Made by a program: the position numbers and the translations under genes. DNA of 64,000 bases, taken from the NCBI RefSeq assembly GCF_001969445.1, contig NZ_CP017297.1:2542001-2606000 (forward strand). Reading direction: 5' to 3'. Each line of letters starts with the position of its first letter. Position 1 is the stretch's first letter. Below, piece after piece: positions 48,598 through 55,275 of this stretch. Below the pieces are notes generated by a model that worked only from the letters and a program-made list of their open reading frames with translations, did no database searches and was not told the origin of the DNA. Source of the DNA: Brachybacterium sp. P6-10-X1. GTDB lineage: Bacteria > Actinomycetota > Actinomycetes > Actinomycetales > Dermabacteraceae.

Positions 48598-49446
48598 TCA
48601 CTCCCCCGCCACAGCACGCTCCAGGCGCTGGGAGATGTCGGCGAGCACCTCGTCGACGGGCTGCTCGGCGAGCTCCTTCATGAACGGTTCGACCTTCACG
48701 GGGCCGGTGTACCCGGCAGCGTGGACGGCACCCATGAAGCCGGCGAGATCGATGACCCCGGTGGTGTAGGGCAGGCGACGGTCGAGGTCCTGCTGCTGGT
48801 CGCGCTCGCGATCATCGCGGGCGTCGTTGATGTCGACCGAGACGATGTCCGCGTCGGTGAGTCCTGCGAGGTCCTCGGCGCTCTCCCCGGCGGTGTACCA
48901 GTGGTAGCTGTCCAGGATGAGACCGACGTTGCCGGCCCCGGACTCGGCGATCAGCTCGCGCGCCTCGCGCAGGCCGTGGATGAAGGGGAACCGCTCGGTG
49001 GACCAGAAGGTCTTGGGACCGATGTACTCCAGGCCGAGCCGCAGTCCGGCATCGGCCAGCAGCTCGGCGACCAGGGAGAGGCGGCCGACGTGCAGGCGCC
49101 AGTTCTGGCGGTGGTCGAGCACGTCATGCATGGGCCGGATCCAGGTGCCGACGCGGGTGACACCGGCGGCCCGCAGCAGCTCGAGGGTCGCAGGCATGTC
49201 CACGAGCGCCTCGCGGAACTCTGCGGCGGGTGCGTCCAGCGGCACGGGCAGGCCGGCCATGCCCCATGCGAGACCGCGTTCGCGCACCTCGGCGGCATGC
49301 TCGGCGACGGCCCCCGTGCTGCCCAGGGAGCGGAAGTACTCCGGGTCGGGGTCGATGCCGCCGAAGCCGTGCTTCGCGGCGAGTTCTATCGCGGTGGGAT
49401 GGACCAGGGAGAGACCGAGTGCGCCGGGCGAGAGATTCGAGAACAT
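48598..49446 (-). CDS. sugar phosphate isomerase/epimerase (TIM barrel)
   Basis: A 282-residue xylose-isomerase-like protein. It starts NLSPGALGLSLVHPTAIELA and has putative metal ligands in LGLEYIGPKTFW (Glu), ILDSYHWYTAG (Asp, His), DIVSVDINDARDD and VKVEPFMKEL (Glu). It is coupled to the hydrolase just downstream. It is related in fold, not closely in sequence, to the isomerase at 7384. Substrate unknown. Confidence 0.87.
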   Translation of the reverse strand: MFSNLSPGALGLSLVHPTAIELAAKHGFGGIDPDPEYFRSLGSTGAVAEHAAEVRERGLAWGMAGLPVPLDAPAAEFREALVDMPATLELLRAAGVTRVGTWIRPMHDVLDHRQNWRLHVGRLSLVAELLADAGLRLGLEYIGPKTFWSTERFPFIHGLREARELIAESGAGNVGLILDSYHWYTAGESAEDLAGLTDADIVSVDINDARDDRERDQQQDLDRRLPYTTGVIDLAGFMGAVHAAGYTGPVKVEPFMKELAEQPVDEVLADISQRLERAVAGE

Positions 49447-49511: not shown

Positions 49512-50081
49512 TCAGCCGGTCTCCGGCGGTGGCGTCGTGAACAGGCCGCGGTGCAGGATCCGCCGAGCGCGTGCGAGGCCGTCGGAACCGCCCGCACGAT
49601 GGTCCGCCGCGAGAGCTGCCATCATCATCGGCAGCGCGAGCAGGACGTCCTCGGCGGTCGTGCCGGGATGCGCGGCGCCTGCCGCGCGCGCCTGCGCCAC
49701 CAGGGGCGCGAAGGCAGCCTTCGTCCGGCCCGAGAGCTCCGCGAGCCCGCTGCTCCGCTCGCGGGCGGCCATCTGCGCCAACCACGGCGTGACGATCTGG
49801 ACGTCCAGGACGTGGCGGAACAGCTGGGCGGCCCCGTCGTCCCGTCCCTGAAGAGTCCTCGCCCGCGCTTCGATCTCCTCGACGTTCTCCCGCAGGACCG
49901 CGGCGGCGAGCGCCTCACGATCGGCGAAGTGGCGATGCAGCGTGGTGCGGCTGACCCCGGCCTCACGCGCTATCTCATCCAAGGGCACCTCGGGCCCGTG
50001 CTCCGCCGCGACATGTCGAGCGGCGGCGAGGAGTCGTGCGCGGTTCCGCGCCGCATCGCGCCGCGCAGGTGCCTCAGCCAT
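49512..50081 (-). CDS. TetR-family regulator of the monooxygenase operon
   Basis: A 189-residue repressor with helix-turn-helix RARLLAAARHVAAEHGPEVP, then LDEIAREAGVSRTTLHRHFA. The C-terminal domain (LLALPMMMAALAADHRAGG) is hydrophobic, as suits a small apolar ligand. It diverges from the Baeyer-Villiger monooxygenase; a 22-base inverted repeat stands between them (50127-50148), so it is almost surely the local repressor. Confidence 0.91.
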   Translation of the reverse strand: MAEAPARRDAARNRARLLAAARHVAAEHGPEVPLDEIAREAGVSRTTLHRHFADREALAAAVLRENVEEIEARARTLQGRDDGAAQLFRHVLDVQIVTPWLAQMAARERSSGLAELSGRTKAAFAPLVAQARAAGAAHPGTTAEDVLLALPMMMAALAADHRAGGSDGLARARRILHRGLFTTPPPETG

Positions 50082-50126
50082 GCCCGAACTGTACCTATCG
50101 ACGAGGTCATGGCGTGCTTGCGGCCA

Positions 50127-50148
50127 AAACGTACGTTGATGTACGTTT
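50127..50148. promoter_or_regulatory. TetR operator between regulator and monooxygenase
   Basis: AAACGTAC, six bases, then GTACGTTT: perfect 8-base arms, 22 bases in all. It lies 45 bases before the TetR start and 26 before the monooxygenase start, so it can control both directions. Confidence 0.7.
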
Positions 50149-50174
50149 CTTGCTCGTTGCGAGGAAGGACCCCT

Positions 50175-52040
50175 ATGACGGACACGACCATCACGACCGA
50201 TGACCTCGATCCCGGCATCGACCCCGAGGCACTGCGCGCGAAGTACCGTCGGGAGCGGGATCGTCGGATCCGCTCCGACGGGACCGGCCAGTACCGCCGG
50301 ACGGCCGGGGAGTTCGGCTACTACGCCAAGGACCCGTACACGCCGCCGACCGACCGCGCTCCCCTGTCGGACACGGTCGAGGTGCTGGTGATCGGCGCCG
50401 GCTTCGGAGGCCTGCTCACGGCCGCGAAGCTCCGGGACGCAGGCGTCCGGTCCCTGCGGCTGATGGACGAGGCCGGCGACGTGGGCGGGACCTGGTACTG
50501 GAACCGCTACCCCGGCATCCACTGCGACATCGAGTCCTACCTGTACATGCCGCTGCTGGAGGAGACCGGCTACATGCCGCAGTGGCGCTACGCGCCCGGC
50601 GAGGAGATCCGTCGGCACACGGTGCGGATCGCCGAGCACTACGACCTCTACCGCGACACCGCCTTCCACACCCGAGCCACCGAGCTGAGCTGGGACGAGG
50701 AGGAGGCGCACTGGCTGGTGCGCACCGATCGCGGGGATGCGATGCACGCCCGCTGCGTCGTCGTCTCCTCCGGCACGCTCTCCCAGCCGAAGCTCCCCGA
50801 CATCCCGGGGATCGAGGACTTCGGCGGGCACACCTTCCACACCAGCCGCTGGGACTACGGCTACACCGGCGGCGATGCCGAGGGCGGCATGACGGGACTG
50901 ACCGACAAGCGCGTGGCCGTCATCGGCACCGGAGCGACCGGTCTGCAGGCGATCCCGAAGATCGCCGCGGATGCACAGCATCTGTCCGTCTTCCAGCGCA
51001 CCCCCTCCACCGTCGACGTGCGCGCGAACCGCCCCACCGACCCCGCGTGGGCCGCCTCGTTGCAGCCGGGCTGGCAGCGCGAACGGATGGAGAACTTCCT
51101 GGAGACCCTCGCCGGCGAGGACGTCGAGGAGGACCTGGTCGGCGACGGCTGGACCGCCACGCCGGCCCTGCAGCGCACGATGATCACCGGCAAGGTCGAC
51201 ACCTCGCTCGAGCCCGCCGAGCGCGAGCGCCGGGACGAGCTCGCCGATTTCGCGACCATGAATCGGATCCGCTCCCGGGTGGACGAGGTGGTCGAGGATC
51301 CGGCCACGGCCGAGGCGCTCAAACCCTGGTATCGCTACATGTGCAAGCGGCCCGGATTCAGCGATCAGTACCTCCAGGCCTTCAACCGCGACAACGTCAC
51401 CCTCGTCGACACCGCGGATCACGGCGGCGTCACCCGGATGACGCAGAACGCGGTGGTCGTCGGCGAGCAGGAGTACGAGGTCGACTGCGTCATCTTCGCC
51501 ACGGGCTTCGAGACCGGGGTCTCCGGGGCCGTCTCCGGCACGCTCCCGGTCCACGGCCGGGGCGGGACCCCGCTGCTGCAGGCCTGGGCCCGCGGCCCGC
51601 GCACCCTGCACGGCTTCACCACCCACGGCTTCCCGAACCTGTTCCAGCTGGGCTCGCTGCAGAACGCGAACTCGGTGAACTTCGTGCACATCCTGTCCGA
51701 GCAGGCCGAGCACATCGCAGCGATGATCGGTGCGGCTCGCGACAGCGGCGCCCTCTACGTCGAGCCCACCCGCGAGGCGGAACAGGCTTGGTGCGACACC
51801 ATCGAGGAGGTCGCCGTCGACAACTCCGCGTTCCTCGCCGAGTGCACCCCCGGGTACTACAACGGCGAGGGCACCCGACGTGGCCCGTCCACGTCCTACG
51901 CGCCGGGCCCGGTGGCCTTCCACCGGCTGCTCGCCGCGTGGCGCGAGAACAGCATGGACGAGGTGCTCGTCCACGCCGGTCCCGGCGCACCGCGCCGTGA
52001 GAGCTCGCACGGCGTGCCCGTCGGCCCGGGAGTCGCCTGA
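50175..52040 (+). CDS. Baeyer-Villiger flavin monooxygenase
   Basis: A 621-residue FAD/NADPH enzyme that inserts oxygen next to a ketone, giving an ester or lactone. The FAD motif GAGFGG is at 74-79 with an extended ~65-residue N-terminus typical of cyclopentadecanone/steroid-type members. The class fingerprint FxGxxxHxxxW is F216-G218-H222-W226 followed by Asp. The second Rossmann motif for NADPH is GTGATG (251-256). GAGGAAGG is 6 bases before the ATG. It overlaps the SMP-30 lipoprotein gene by one base (TGATG). Confidence 0.93.
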   Translation: MTDTTITTDDLDPGIDPEALRAKYRRERDRRIRSDGTGQYRRTAGEFGYYAKDPYTPPTDRAPLSDTVEVLVIGAGFGGLLTAAKLRDAGVRSLRLMDEAGDVGGTWYWNRYPGIHCDIESYLYMPLLEETGYMPQWRYAPGEEIRRHTVRIAEHYDLYRDTAFHTRATELSWDEEEAHWLVRTDRGDAMHARCVVVSSGTLSQPKLPDIPGIEDFGGHTFHTSRWDYGYTGGDAEGGMTGLTDKRVAVIGTGATGLQAIPKIAADAQHLSVFQRTPSTVDVRANRPTDPAWAASLQPGWQRERMENFLETLAGEDVEEDLVGDGWTATPALQRTMITGKVDTSLEPAERERRDELADFATMNRIRSRVDEVVEDPATAEALKPWYRYMCKRPGFSDQYLQAFNRDNVTLVDTADHGGVTRMTQNAVVVGEQEYEVDCVIFATGFETGVSGAVSGTLPVHGRGGTPLLQAWARGPRTLHGFTTHGFPNLFQLGSLQNANSVNFVHILSEQAEHIAAMIGAARDSGALYVEPTREAEQAWCDTIEEVAVDNSAFLAECTPGYYNGEGTRRGPSTSYAPGPVAFHRLLAAWRENSMDEVLVHAGPGAPRRESSHGVPVGPGVA

Positions 52041-53101
52041 TGCGCGCCGGGCGCTCGACGGCCGTCGGAACGGTGCCCCGGCGCTCCGTGGCCGTCCTGG
52101 CGGTCGCCGCCGTCACGCTGCCGCTGGCGGGCTGCCTGGAGTCCGGGGAACCGGCCCCTCCGAGCCGGTCCGCCTCTGCGGCCGACGGGCCCAGCCGTCT
52201 GACCGCGCAGCGGCTCCTGCAGGTCACCGAACCTCATGAGGCCACGGGACGGACGCTGCTCGAGGGGCCGACGTTCGACGAGGGCGGTCGCCTGTACCTG
52301 GTCGACGTCACCGCCCCGGCCGAGGCGCCCAAGGTGATGCGGGTCGATCTGGACTCCCAGGAGGTGACCGAGGTGTTCACGGACGAGACCGGTGCCTACA
52401 CCTCGGCGCAGTGGGGTCCGAGGGACGGCCGGCTGTACCTGACCGACTACGCGTCCGGGCGGATCGTCAGCATCACCGCTGACGGCGAGGATCCGCAGAC
52501 GATCTTCGAGGGAGAGGTGGAGGGGCGCGCCATGCACCCCGACGATCTCGCGTTCGACGAGGACGGGAACTTCTTCGTCACCGATTCGTCCCCGACCGCC
52601 TACCCCGACGCGGAGCCCGCCGGGCGCGTGGTGCGGATCGATGCCGGCTCCGGCGAGGCGACCGTGCTCGCCGACGGCCAGCCGAACCCCAACGGGATCT
52701 CCTACGACGCGAGGACGTCGGCGCTCTGGGTCAGCCAGCTGGACGCGAACCGCATCGACCGTCTGCTGCTGGACGAGGAGGGGACCGCGGTCGCCACCGA
52801 GCACACCGCCATCCACGTGGACGGCGGCCCGTCCCGGACCGACTCGAACGCGCTCGACGCCGACGGGAACATCTACCAGGGCGTGCACGGCATCCCGCGG
52901 ATCCTGGTGTACGGCCCGGACGGTGCGCCGAGGGCCACCGTCGGCCTTCCGGAGGAGGACGAGGGCCTCGAGTCGGCGACGAACATCGCGATCGAGCCGG
53001 GCACCACCGATGCGTACGTCACCGTCAGCGGGCCGGCCGGCGGGTTCGTGTACCGCTTCGACACCCTGGCCGAGGGCACCAGGGCATCGAACGGCGGATG
53101 A
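52040..53101 (+). CDS. SMP-30/gluconolactonase-like lipoprotein
   Basis: A 353-residue six-bladed beta-propeller. The signal is PRRSVAVLAVAAVTLPLAGC with lipobox LAGC and Cys32. Propeller signatures are GPTFDEGGRLYLVDV (Glu-like metal site), HPDDLAFDEDGNFFVTDS, QPNPNGISYDARTSALWVSQ (Asn-Gly) and RTDSNALDADGNIYQGV (Asp). These match calcium-dependent lactonases such as SMP-30 and gluconolactonase. It is coupled to the Baeyer-Villiger enzyme, so hydrolysis of the lactone made by its partner is the simplest reading; its location outside the membrane and the oxidase's inside it is a puzzle. Confidence 0.87.
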   Translation: MRAGRSTAVGTVPRRSVAVLAVAAVTLPLAGCLESGEPAPPSRSASAADGPSRLTAQRLLQVTEPHEATGRTLLEGPTFDEGGRLYLVDVTAPAEAPKVMRVDLDSQEVTEVFTDETGAYTSAQWGPRDGRLYLTDYASGRIVSITADGEDPQTIFEGEVEGRAMHPDDLAFDEDGNFFVTDSSPTAYPDAEPAGRVVRIDAGSGEATVLADGQPNPNGISYDARTSALWVSQLDANRIDRLLLDEEGTAVATEHTAIHVDGGPSRTDSNALDADGNIYQGVHGIPRILVYGPDGAPRATVGLPEEDEGLESATNIAIEPGTTDAYVTVSGPAGGFVYRFDTLAEGTRASNGG

Positions 53102-53111
53102 GAGGTCCGGG

Positions 53112-53645
53112 TCAGTCGCCGTCGCGCGGGCGGGGCCGACCCGCGGCCTCGACGACGACCCGGTAGGCCTCGGAGAAGCGGGCCAGCAGGCGCAGGAACT
53201 CGGTGGCCTCAGGTTCCCCCAGGGCGTCCAGCGCCTCGCGGTAGCCGTCCAGGGCGGAGGCGACGTCGGCCTCGAAGAGGTCATGGCCCGCCTCCGTCCG
53301 CGCGAAGACGTAGGCGCCGCCGCCCTCCGGACGAGACCGCTCCAGCAGCCCCGCCGCGACGGCGGCGTTGACCTGCCGATTGACGGTGGATTGCTCGAGA
53401 TGGAGCGCGTCGGAGATCTCCCGCAGAGTGCGCGGCCGCTCGTCGAAGAAGAGCCAGAGGATGCGCAGATCGGCATCCCCCAGCACCTGCTGCTGCCGAT
53501 GGAGCCGTTGATGGCGGGTCAACCGGGTGAGCAGCGCGGCCGTGGTGCGGCCGCGGTCGTCGTCCTCCTCGATGCGCCCGTCGCCGACGCCCGAGGTGCG
53601 GCCCTCGCCGTCCCTCGTCATGCGTCGCGGCCGCTCCTGCGTCAT
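53112..53645 (-). CDS. MarR-family regulator
   Basis: A 177-residue winged-helix repressor. DADLRILWLFFDERPRTLRE, then ISDALHLEQSTVNRQVNAAV (recognition helix) and LLERSRPEGGGAYVFARTEA (wing) are typical. The first 40 residues are charged and low-complexity. GGAGGGG (complement of 53650-53656) is 4 bases before ATG 53645, which is chosen over ATG 53621. It diverges from an MFS exporter, its probable target, with two similar sites between them. Confidence 0.88.
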   Translation of the reverse strand: MTQERPRRMTRDGEGRTSGVGDGRIEEDDDRGRTTAALLTRLTRHQRLHRQQQVLGDADLRILWLFFDERPRTLREISDALHLEQSTVNRQVNAAVAAGLLERSRPEGGGAYVFARTEAGHDLFEADVASALDGYREALDALGEPEATEFLRLLARFSEAYRVVVEAAGRPRPRDGD

Positions 53646-53680
53646 CTGCCCCTCCGTGATCCTCGACTCGGCCTCACCAT

Positions 53681-53723
53681 ATATGCACTTTACACATCGA
53701 GTGCGCCTATGTAGTTTGCACAT
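53681..53723. promoter_or_regulatory. twin MarR-type sites between regulator and exporter
   Basis: Read on the minus strand, ATGTGTAAAGTGCATAT (53681-53697) and ATGTGCAAACTACATAG (53707-53723) agree at 13 of 17 positions, centres 26 bases apart. Each is a loose inverted repeat. They fill the middle of the divergent promoter region. Confidence 0.55.
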
Positions 53724-53754
53724 CACTTCTCCCAGTCCTGACCAGAAGGTGACG

Positions 53755-55275
53755 ATGAACAGCTCTTCCCAGACCCAGGAGGCGGTGCGCGGCCCTGCCG
53801 GCCCCACCGGCCCCGCCGACCCCACCGGCCCCGCCGGCCCCGCCGGGCACCCGATCCTGATCCTCATCGTGGCCGGCTTCTCCAGCCTGTGCGCCGCGCT
53901 CATGCAGTCGCTCGTGATCCCGATCCAGCCGCAGCTGCCCGAGATGCTCTCCACCTCGGCGTCCAACGCCGCGTGGGTGGTCACCGCCACCTTGCTGGCC
54001 GGTGGCGTCGCCATGCCGGTGACCGGCAAGCTCGCCGACCTCAAGGGGCGCAAGCCCGTGCTGGTGGGTTCTGCGCTCCTGCTGCTGATCGGCTCGCTGA
54101 TCTGCGCCCTGGGCGACTCCTTCGCGCCGGTCCTCATCGGCCGCGTCCTGCAGGGCCTGGCCATGGGCTACATCCCGGTGGCCATCAGCTTCGTGCGCGA
54201 GGTGATGCCCCCGCACCTGCGCAACACCGCGGTCGCCGCCATCAGCGCAACCCTCGGCGTCGGGGGCGCCCTCGGCCTGCCCATCGCCGCCTGGGTCGTC
54301 CAGAGCTACGACTGGCACGCCCTGTTCTGGCTGGCCACAGTGCTGGCGGTGATCATGATGGTCGCCTCGATCGTGGTCCTGCCGAACCATCCGGCCACCG
54401 GCTCCGGGAAGCTCGACGTGGTCGGTGCGATCGGTCTGTCCGTCGGCGTCGTCGCGGTCCTCGTCGGCGTCTCCAAGGGCACCGACTGGGGCTGGGTCAG
54501 CCCCTCGACCCTCGGAGCGATCCTCGGCGGCATCGTGGTGCTGCTGCTGTGGGGACGCTTCGAGATCGGCCACGACAACCCGCTGGTCGACCTGCGCACG
54601 ACGGCGCGTCGGCCGGTGCTTCTGACGAACATCGCCGCGCTGATGGCCGGCTTCGGCATGATGGCGCAGTCGATCGCCGTCCCCCAGCTGCTGCAGGCCC
54701 CCGACGCGACCGGCTACGGGCTCGGCCAGACGGTGCTGCAGGCCGGACTGTGGATGGCCCCTGCCGGGCTGATGATGATGATCTTCACCCCGATCTCCAG
54801 CCGCATGCTGACCCGCCTGGGCGGACGCACCACGCTGGCCACCGGCATGGTCGTGATGGCCTGCGGCTACCTGGTCGCCTTCTTCCTGACCGATGCGCCG
54901 TGGCAGCTGATGCTCGCAGCCTGCGTCTCCTCGGCCGGCGTGGGCATCGCCTACGCGGCGATGCCCACCCTGATCATGGAGAACTCCCCCGCCTCGGAGG
55001 CCGGAGCGGGAGTCGGCGTGAACGCACTGATGCGCTCGATGGGCACCACCGTCGCGGGCGCGGTGATGGCGATCGTGCTCACCTCGATCACGACCACCAT
55101 GGCCGGCGCCTCGCTGCCCACGGTGACCGCGTTCAAGGTGTGCTTCGCCCTCGGCGCGGTCGCGGGCCTCGGAGCCGCCGCGGTCACGCTGTTCATCCGC
55201 CGCCGCTCACCGGAGGAGGCCGCGGCCGACGTCACCACGGGGCCCGAGGCCGTCGACGAGCCGGCGCTGCCCTGA
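53755..55275 (+). CDS. MFS transporter, DHA2 (14-helix) drug exporter
   Basis: A 506-residue efflux pump with 14 predicted helices. After a collagen-like N-terminus (GPAGPTGPADPTGPAGPAGH) come helix 1, then motif A-like GKLADLKGRKPVLVGSALLL and motif C-like ATLGVGGALGLPIAAWVVQ. LGGRTTLATGMVVMACG lies in the second half. GAAGGTGA precedes ATG 53755; GTG 53749 is an alternative. It is controlled, presumably, by the divergent MarR protein. A strong hairpin (55308-55348) ends the transcript. Confidence 0.93.
   Translation: MNSSSQTQEAVRGPAGPTGPADPTGPAGPAGHPILILIVAGFSSLCAALMQSLVIPIQPQLPEMLSTSASNAAWVVTATLLAGGVAMPVTGKLADLKGRKPVLVGSALLLLIGSLICALGDSFAPVLIGRVLQGLAMGYIPVAISFVREVMPPHLRNTAVAAISATLGVGGALGLPIAAWVVQSYDWHALFWLATVLAVIMMVASIVVLPNHPATGSGKLDVVGAIGLSVGVVAVLVGVSKGTDWGWVSPSTLGAILGGIVVLLLWGRFEIGHDNPLVDLRTTARRPVLLTNIAALMAGFGMMAQSIAVPQLLQAPDATGYGLGQTVLQAGLWMAPAGLMMMIFTPISSRMLTRLGGRTTLATGMVVMACGYLVAFFLTDAPWQLMLAACVSSAGVGIAYAAMPTLIMENSPASEAGAGVGVNALMRSMGTTVAGAVMAIVLTSITTTMAGASLPTVTAFKVCFALGAVAGLGAAAVTLFIRRRSPEEAAADVTTGPEAVDEPALP

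Follow-up and report, generated by a model that had tools for sequence, protein, structure and literature searches.

The subject of this work is a TetR-associated pair of genes in the soil-type bacterium Brachybacterium sp. P6-10-X1, which encode a type I Baeyer-Villiger monooxygenase (BVMO) and a six-bladed propeller lipoprotein of the SMP-30/gluconolactonase type. Both lie in a 64,000-nucleotide stretch (contig NZ_CP017297.1, positions 2,542,001 to 2,606,000), hereafter the window, within which positions are counted. Judged by genome comparison, the BVMO and the propeller form a conserved module that recurs in many related bacteria, keeps the same operator in a genome where the two genes lie far apart, and probably acts as a TetR-repressed two-enzyme route from a ketone through a lactone or ester to an acid.

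Conserved Pairing of the BVMO and the Propeller

Of the 120 relatives that a contig scan with the window propeller found in 309 stretches, the 80 best were kept. A BVMO 56-79% identical to that of the window was found in the fetched flank of 75 of these 80 relatives, the two genes being co-directional as in the window at 13 loci and on opposite strands at 62 (61 divergent and one, L013, tail to tail). Among the five loci without a neighbouring BVMO, L074 lies at a contig end, and the genomes of the other four (L009, L034, L039 and L065) carry elsewhere a BVMO 64-78% identical. That of the L065 genome (G811) is split between two frames, with identities of 69 and 72% (L166, 5995-7745), and is either frameshifted or mis-assembled. 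Within the window's genus, both genes are present in the same five of 38 genomes.

When the search starts from the BVMO, 394 genomes of the class yield 29 places with a BVMO of at least 59% identity, the window's own included. The lipoprotein adjoins 23 of them, a different SGL/NHL propeller five (L118, L119, L121, L123 and L120, the last by a weak, short match; Pfam was run for L121 only), and no propeller one (L116). At 55% identity or less there are 70 places, of which 28 were fetched; the lipoprotein stands alongside none of these, and a longer propeller is found within the stretch in seven. Distant BVMOs near an SGL/NHL propeller of ~530-550 residues were recorded at L133, L137, L141, L142, L143, L144 and L146, and the distant-BVMO loci inspected, with a Rieske-type oxygenase and dehydrogenases nearby, look like an uncharacterised catabolic pathway.

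In a tree of 130 BVMOs, the paired ones group as 101 rows (94 with the lipoprotein, six with the other propeller and one with none; Shimodaira-Hasegawa-like approximate likelihood ratio test, SH-aLRT, 100), apart from the 28 distant BVMOs and from the PtlE type. This is a quick tree, midpoint-rooted for drawing, in which the lipoprotein label was assigned from a list and from which BVMOs with fewer than 480 aligned residues, as well as identical rows, were dropped. As a separate observation, the propeller gene beside the BVMO of one congener (L097, G437) is split over two frames, 45% identical over the fragment, and is probably decaying.

No paper linking a BVMO with an SMP-30 propeller was found among the open-licence papers searched, and within that literature a surface SMP-30 lipoprotein constantly paired with this BVMO clade, together with the operator, appears undescribed.

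The Operator and Its TetR Regulator

The first-pass annotation of the window had read the two enzyme genes as coupled by a one-base overlap and had placed an 8+6+8-base operator between the BVMO gene and its TetR gene; both features are present as described, the first as a TGATG junction and the second as a perfect inverted repeat (Table 1). Within three mismatches, neither the window (0.01 matches expected) nor the 4.39-Mb genome contains a second match to the repeat. When the 93-nt gap was shuffled 20,000 times at constant composition, 31 shuffles gave a perfect 8+6+8 palindrome, and 216 did so when any spacer of 0-10 was allowed. The operator is conserved in L094, L095 and L009/L163, and near-identical in L010 and L102. 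A chance palindrome was rejected on its uniqueness in window and genome, the shuffles and the conservation in relatives.

The genome of Promicromonospora sukumoe (L009, G808) separates what the window holds together. Its propeller has no adjoining BVMO, and a perfect AAACGTAC-N6-GTACGTTT lies upstream of it. Only two operators within two mismatches exist in this genome, the one before the propeller and another, about 0.7 Mb away, between a TetR gene (62% identical) and a BVMO gene (77-78% identical). This operator, shared despite the broken linkage, is the strongest single indication that both proteins serve one purpose.

In the Streptomyces-type divergent gap the site reads ACCGGACA-N4-TGTCCGGT, which keeps the 8+6+8 geometry and has six of eight half-site letters in common with the window. 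The exact site is present in 60 of the 80 loci (reversed control, 0/80) and, at loci with a BVMO, stands between the two starts in 58 of 59 cases. It is single in all 20 genomes searched, three of which hold one extra match with one mismatch and one of which also matched the backwards control. The operator and the TetR recognition helix change together: the helix SRTTLH (window, L094, L095, L010 and L102) goes with AAACGTAC-type sites, and GQGVLY or GQGSLY with ACCGGAC sites, including that of L026 of Promicromonospora. Exceptions are L028, L044, L067 and L074, which have GQGVLY without the exact site; in this comparison, three loci with the site gave no helix by pattern and the gap of L103 was masked.

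The regulator belongs to the TetR family by its TetR_N domain (Pfam, 8e-13, 48.4 bits against 24). It falls outside the ScbR-type gamma-butyrolactone receptors, since the model NF041196 scores 37.8 bits over residues 10-87 only, below its cut-off of 150. A simple scan of 50050-50200 found no sigma-70-type promoter or terminator.

The Monooxygenase

A type I BVMO was defined here by two Rossmann GxGxxG/A motifs together with both motifs printed in PMC6058054, [A/G]GxWxxxx[F/Y]P[G/M]xxxD and FxGxxxHxxxW[P/D]. The window protein carries all of them, its Rossmann motifs being GAGFGG (74-79) and GTGATG (251-256), and an NADPH-dependent conversion of ketones into esters or lactones is predicted for it. 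No signal peptide was seen on it by eye. Its best PDB relatives are, in order, PockeMO (5mq6, 5e-126) and PAMO. In motifs, sequence and length (about 600 residues) it resembles the PockeMO, PntE-PtlE and CPDMO group, and it shares 52.6% identity with a protein annotated as pentalenolactone D synthase; unlike that group, window-type BVMOs form a clade of their own, paired with a propeller.

PMC4498894 describes the roles and natural substrates of BVMOs as widely unknown. With a conserved regulator, an operator of one or two sites and a constant hydrolase partner, the function of one BVMO clade becomes open to direct test: the TetR can serve to identify the inducer, and the propeller partner to identify the BVMO product. 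According to statements in PMC6058054, the Streptomyces BVMO Sle_62070 (50% identity to PntE, 39% to PockeMO) takes bulky cyclic ketones as well as the steroid stanolone as substrates, which offer a starting point for the substrate of window-type BVMOs. The BVMOs of L003 and L004 are 49-50% identical to the PtlE-type protein, a value that is only consistent with Sle_62070 belonging to the paired clade.

The Propeller and Its Location

The propeller matches Pfam SGL (PF08450) at 1e-23, with 84.7 bits against a gathering score of 26.3. Its AlphaFold2 model, built from 46 sequences (predicted local distance difference test, pLDDT, 86.5; predicted template modelling score, pTM, 0.82; residues 1-47 mostly below 50), has a six-bladed fold that matches Drp35 (Z 39.0, root-mean-square deviation 2.1 over 287 residues, 25% identity), DFPase (Z about 35) and the propeller lactonase RPA3624 (Z 33.8). 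E75, D168, N218 and D268 align with the metal ligands of Drp35, of which a D138N structure exists, and are invariant in 81 of 81 sequences, so that the four-ligand site of Drp35 and DFPase is present. Four such ligands hold the metal in DFPase, Drp35 and PON, as stated in a section of PMC3551927, and Drp35 opens mevalonolactone (a statement in PMC6052127). We infer metal-dependent lactone hydrolysis for the window propeller.

The propeller is thus like Staphylococcus aureus Drp35 and the SMP-30/gluconolactonases in its six blades and four aligned ligands. It differs from them in its lipoprotein signal, its genetic pairing with a BVMO and a near-invariant RQSNGG-type C-terminus. This R-x-S-N-G-G end (53081-53098) has R348, N351 and G353 in 81 of 81 sequences and G352 in 80, and despite its near-invariance it is modelled with low confidence (last-block pLDDT 41).

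The signal sequence ends in the lipobox LPLAGC before C32, as in bacterial lipoproteins. A lipobox is present in all 80 relatives (73 by script, six by eye and L047 separately) and, by script, in 21 of 22 further loci, several of them from species already in the first set. The idea that the signal is an annotation artefact was rejected on its presence in 80 of 80 relatives. The congener L095, with the same operator and with a BVMO and a propeller 84% and 77% identical, has a propeller devoid of signal and lipobox, whose start codon directly overlaps the BVMO stop (ATGA), and the other (SGL/NHL) propeller type also shows no visible signal. Thus, a trap outside the membrane cannot be essential, and the external site is usual, not obligatory. 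It seems that the same hydrolysis can take place inside or outside the cell, as would fit a membrane-crossing product. The location puzzle raised in the first-pass annotation, namely that the lactonase seems to lie outside the cell, is real inasmuch as the lipobox is conserved, but the signal-less congener does without the external site.

Proposed Route and Alternatives

In the proposed mechanism, TetR would be relieved at the palindrome by a ketone that enters the cell or arises by oxidation of an alcohol. The cytosolic NADPH/FAD-dependent BVMO would then insert oxygen, and the resulting lactone or ester would be hydrolysed by the metal-dependent propeller to an acid (plus an alcohol). In the usual form, with the propeller as a lipoprotein on the outer membrane face, a membrane-permeant product would be opened outside and the charged acid formed there could not easily return. 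The gene layout, the operator, its co-variation with the regulator, the pairing, the operator in trans, the lipobox and the predicted fold and ligands, all obtained from sequence and comparison, underlie this proposal; the substrate class, the reaction order, the TetR ligand, the repression and the direction of product flow are its conjectural parts. The genetic side of the operon proposed earlier (layout, operator shared when unlinked, pairing) appears strongly supported, and its chemistry fits both enzyme families.

The route from ketone through lactone or ester to acid is the best reading; it fits both families and the short-chain dehydrogenase that is frequently nearby. Linear ketones and esters are as possible as cyclic ones. 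A census of 86 lipoprotein-type loci returned, beyond BVMO, SMP-30 and TetR, the short-chain dehydrogenase family at 26 and the MarR family at seven, and no family apart from the first four in more than eight. Streptomyces, Rothia, Actinorugispora, Promicromonospora and two congeners have the dehydrogenase no more than about 1.2 kb from the BVMO, and its presence in several genera suggests an optional step from alcohol to ketone. A BVMO followed by a hydrolase is a known scheme, and the order alcohol dehydrogenase, BVMO, esterase is a known catabolic one in the acetone and methyl ethyl ketone pathways, whose hydrolase is a cytosolic alpha/beta-fold esterase. The chemistry proposed for the window module follows the same order; unlike that esterase, its hydrolase is usually a surface-anchored metal-dependent propeller.

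Several observations weigh against the proposed route. In the L034 genome, the operator was found at the SMP-30 copy and none around the distant BVMO. Other loci lack both operator and TetR, or have a MarR-type gene in place of TetR, divergent from the BVMO (L011, L012, L013, L016, L017, L062, L165 and L166, the last two by eye). Most of the 80 loci are from Streptomyces and are not independent events, the propeller of L095 is signal-less, and no close relative of the neighbouring dehydrogenase was found in the window genome (best, 39%). Moreover, SMP-30-fold proteins include lactonases, organophosphatases and others, so that hydrolysis of the BVMO product by the propeller can only be inferred.

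Ordinary assimilation, in which the ketone serves as a carbon source and the acid is taken back up and used, appears unlikely. It would follow the catabolic order just mentioned, and the distant BVMOs are clustered with the Rieske-type oxygenase, dehydrogenases, the longer propeller, and a CaiB-type protein and an acyl-CoA dehydrogenase (these two named by eye from protein starts). Against this, no downstream catabolic genes travel with the lipoprotein-type loci of the census, and a lactonase outside the cell is ill suited to uptake. These two features, the lack of travelling catabolic genes and the surface hydrolase, would favour disposal of an unwanted compound over feeding.

It is rather improbable that only the inducer is common and the substrate chains are separate, the lipoprotein opening an external lactone (signal, antibiotic or mycotoxin) and the BVMO acting on another compound. 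The propeller is outside in nearly all cases and four SMP-30 loci lack a neighbouring BVMO, as such a division would have it, but the two genes remain paired through rearrangements and L095 keeps a signal-less propeller. In addition, other actinomycetes have, behind a BVMO of this clade, the different, longer SGL/NHL propeller without a visible signal, which points to a common substrate chain.

A biosynthetic step as in pentalenolactone-type pathways is highly improbable: the best NCBIfam model of the BVMO is indeed neopentalenolactone/pentalenolactone D synthase (NF045818), but its 717 bits fall below the curated cut-off of 1100 and leave the protein outside that family, the pentalenolactone cluster inspected has no annotated SMP-30 and a BVMO outside the paired clade, no conserved biosynthetic genes travel with the module, and a PtlE function was accordingly rejected as not supported.

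Returning to the ketone-to-acid route, a more specific and tentative version, which we hold to be possible but doubtful, is a compartment-split disposal module widespread in Actinomycetota. Inside the cell, the BVMO would convert a membrane-permeant ketone, perhaps one that competitors use as a weapon (a terpenoid, steroid or polyketide), to a lactone or ester that is likewise permeant; what escapes would be hydrolysed by the surface propeller to a charged acid unable to return, a hydrolase thus taking the place of an efflux pump. The role of assimilating counterpart would fall to sister systems with an intracellular propeller. Should the surface location matter, this would be an unusual way of ridding the cell of a lipophilic compound.

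Locus Organisation and Surroundings

The features of the locus are collected in Table 1. The congener L094 has the identical one-base overlap between its BVMO and propeller genes.

Table 1. Features of the BVMO-propeller locus, in window positions.
Feature	Position	Strand	Remarks
TetR-family regulator gene	49512-50081	-	189 aa; divergent from operon; recognition helix SRTTLHRHF
Operator AAACGTAC-gttgat-GTACGTTT	50127-50148	strandless	22-bp perfect 8+6+8 inverted repeat between TetR and BVMO genes
Type I BVMO gene	50175-52040	+	621 aa; two Rossmann motifs
Type I BVMO motif GGTWYWNRYPGIHCD	50484-50528	+	Residues 104-118; compared with motif printed in PMC6058054
Type I BVMO fingerprint FGGHTFHTSRWD	50820-50855	+	Residues 216-227; compared with motif printed in PMC6058054
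TGATG stop/start junction	52038-52042	+	Stop TGA 52038-52040, start ATG 52040-52042; one base common
SMP-30/gluconolactonase-type six-bladed propeller lipoprotein gene	52040-53101	+	353 aa; predicted metal ligands E75, D168, N218, D268
Signal sequence with lipobox LPLAGC	52040-52135	+	Predicted lipidated cysteine C32

A gene for a xylose-isomerase-like TIM-barrel protein (48598-49446) adjoins the module and recurs in L094, L095 and L096, so that the module occupies a similar place in several congeners. After the module come, in 53112-55275, a MarR-type gene and, divergent to it, a gene for an MFS-type transporter (named by eye), and relatives of this transporter are found near the module in L014, L095, L096 and L098.

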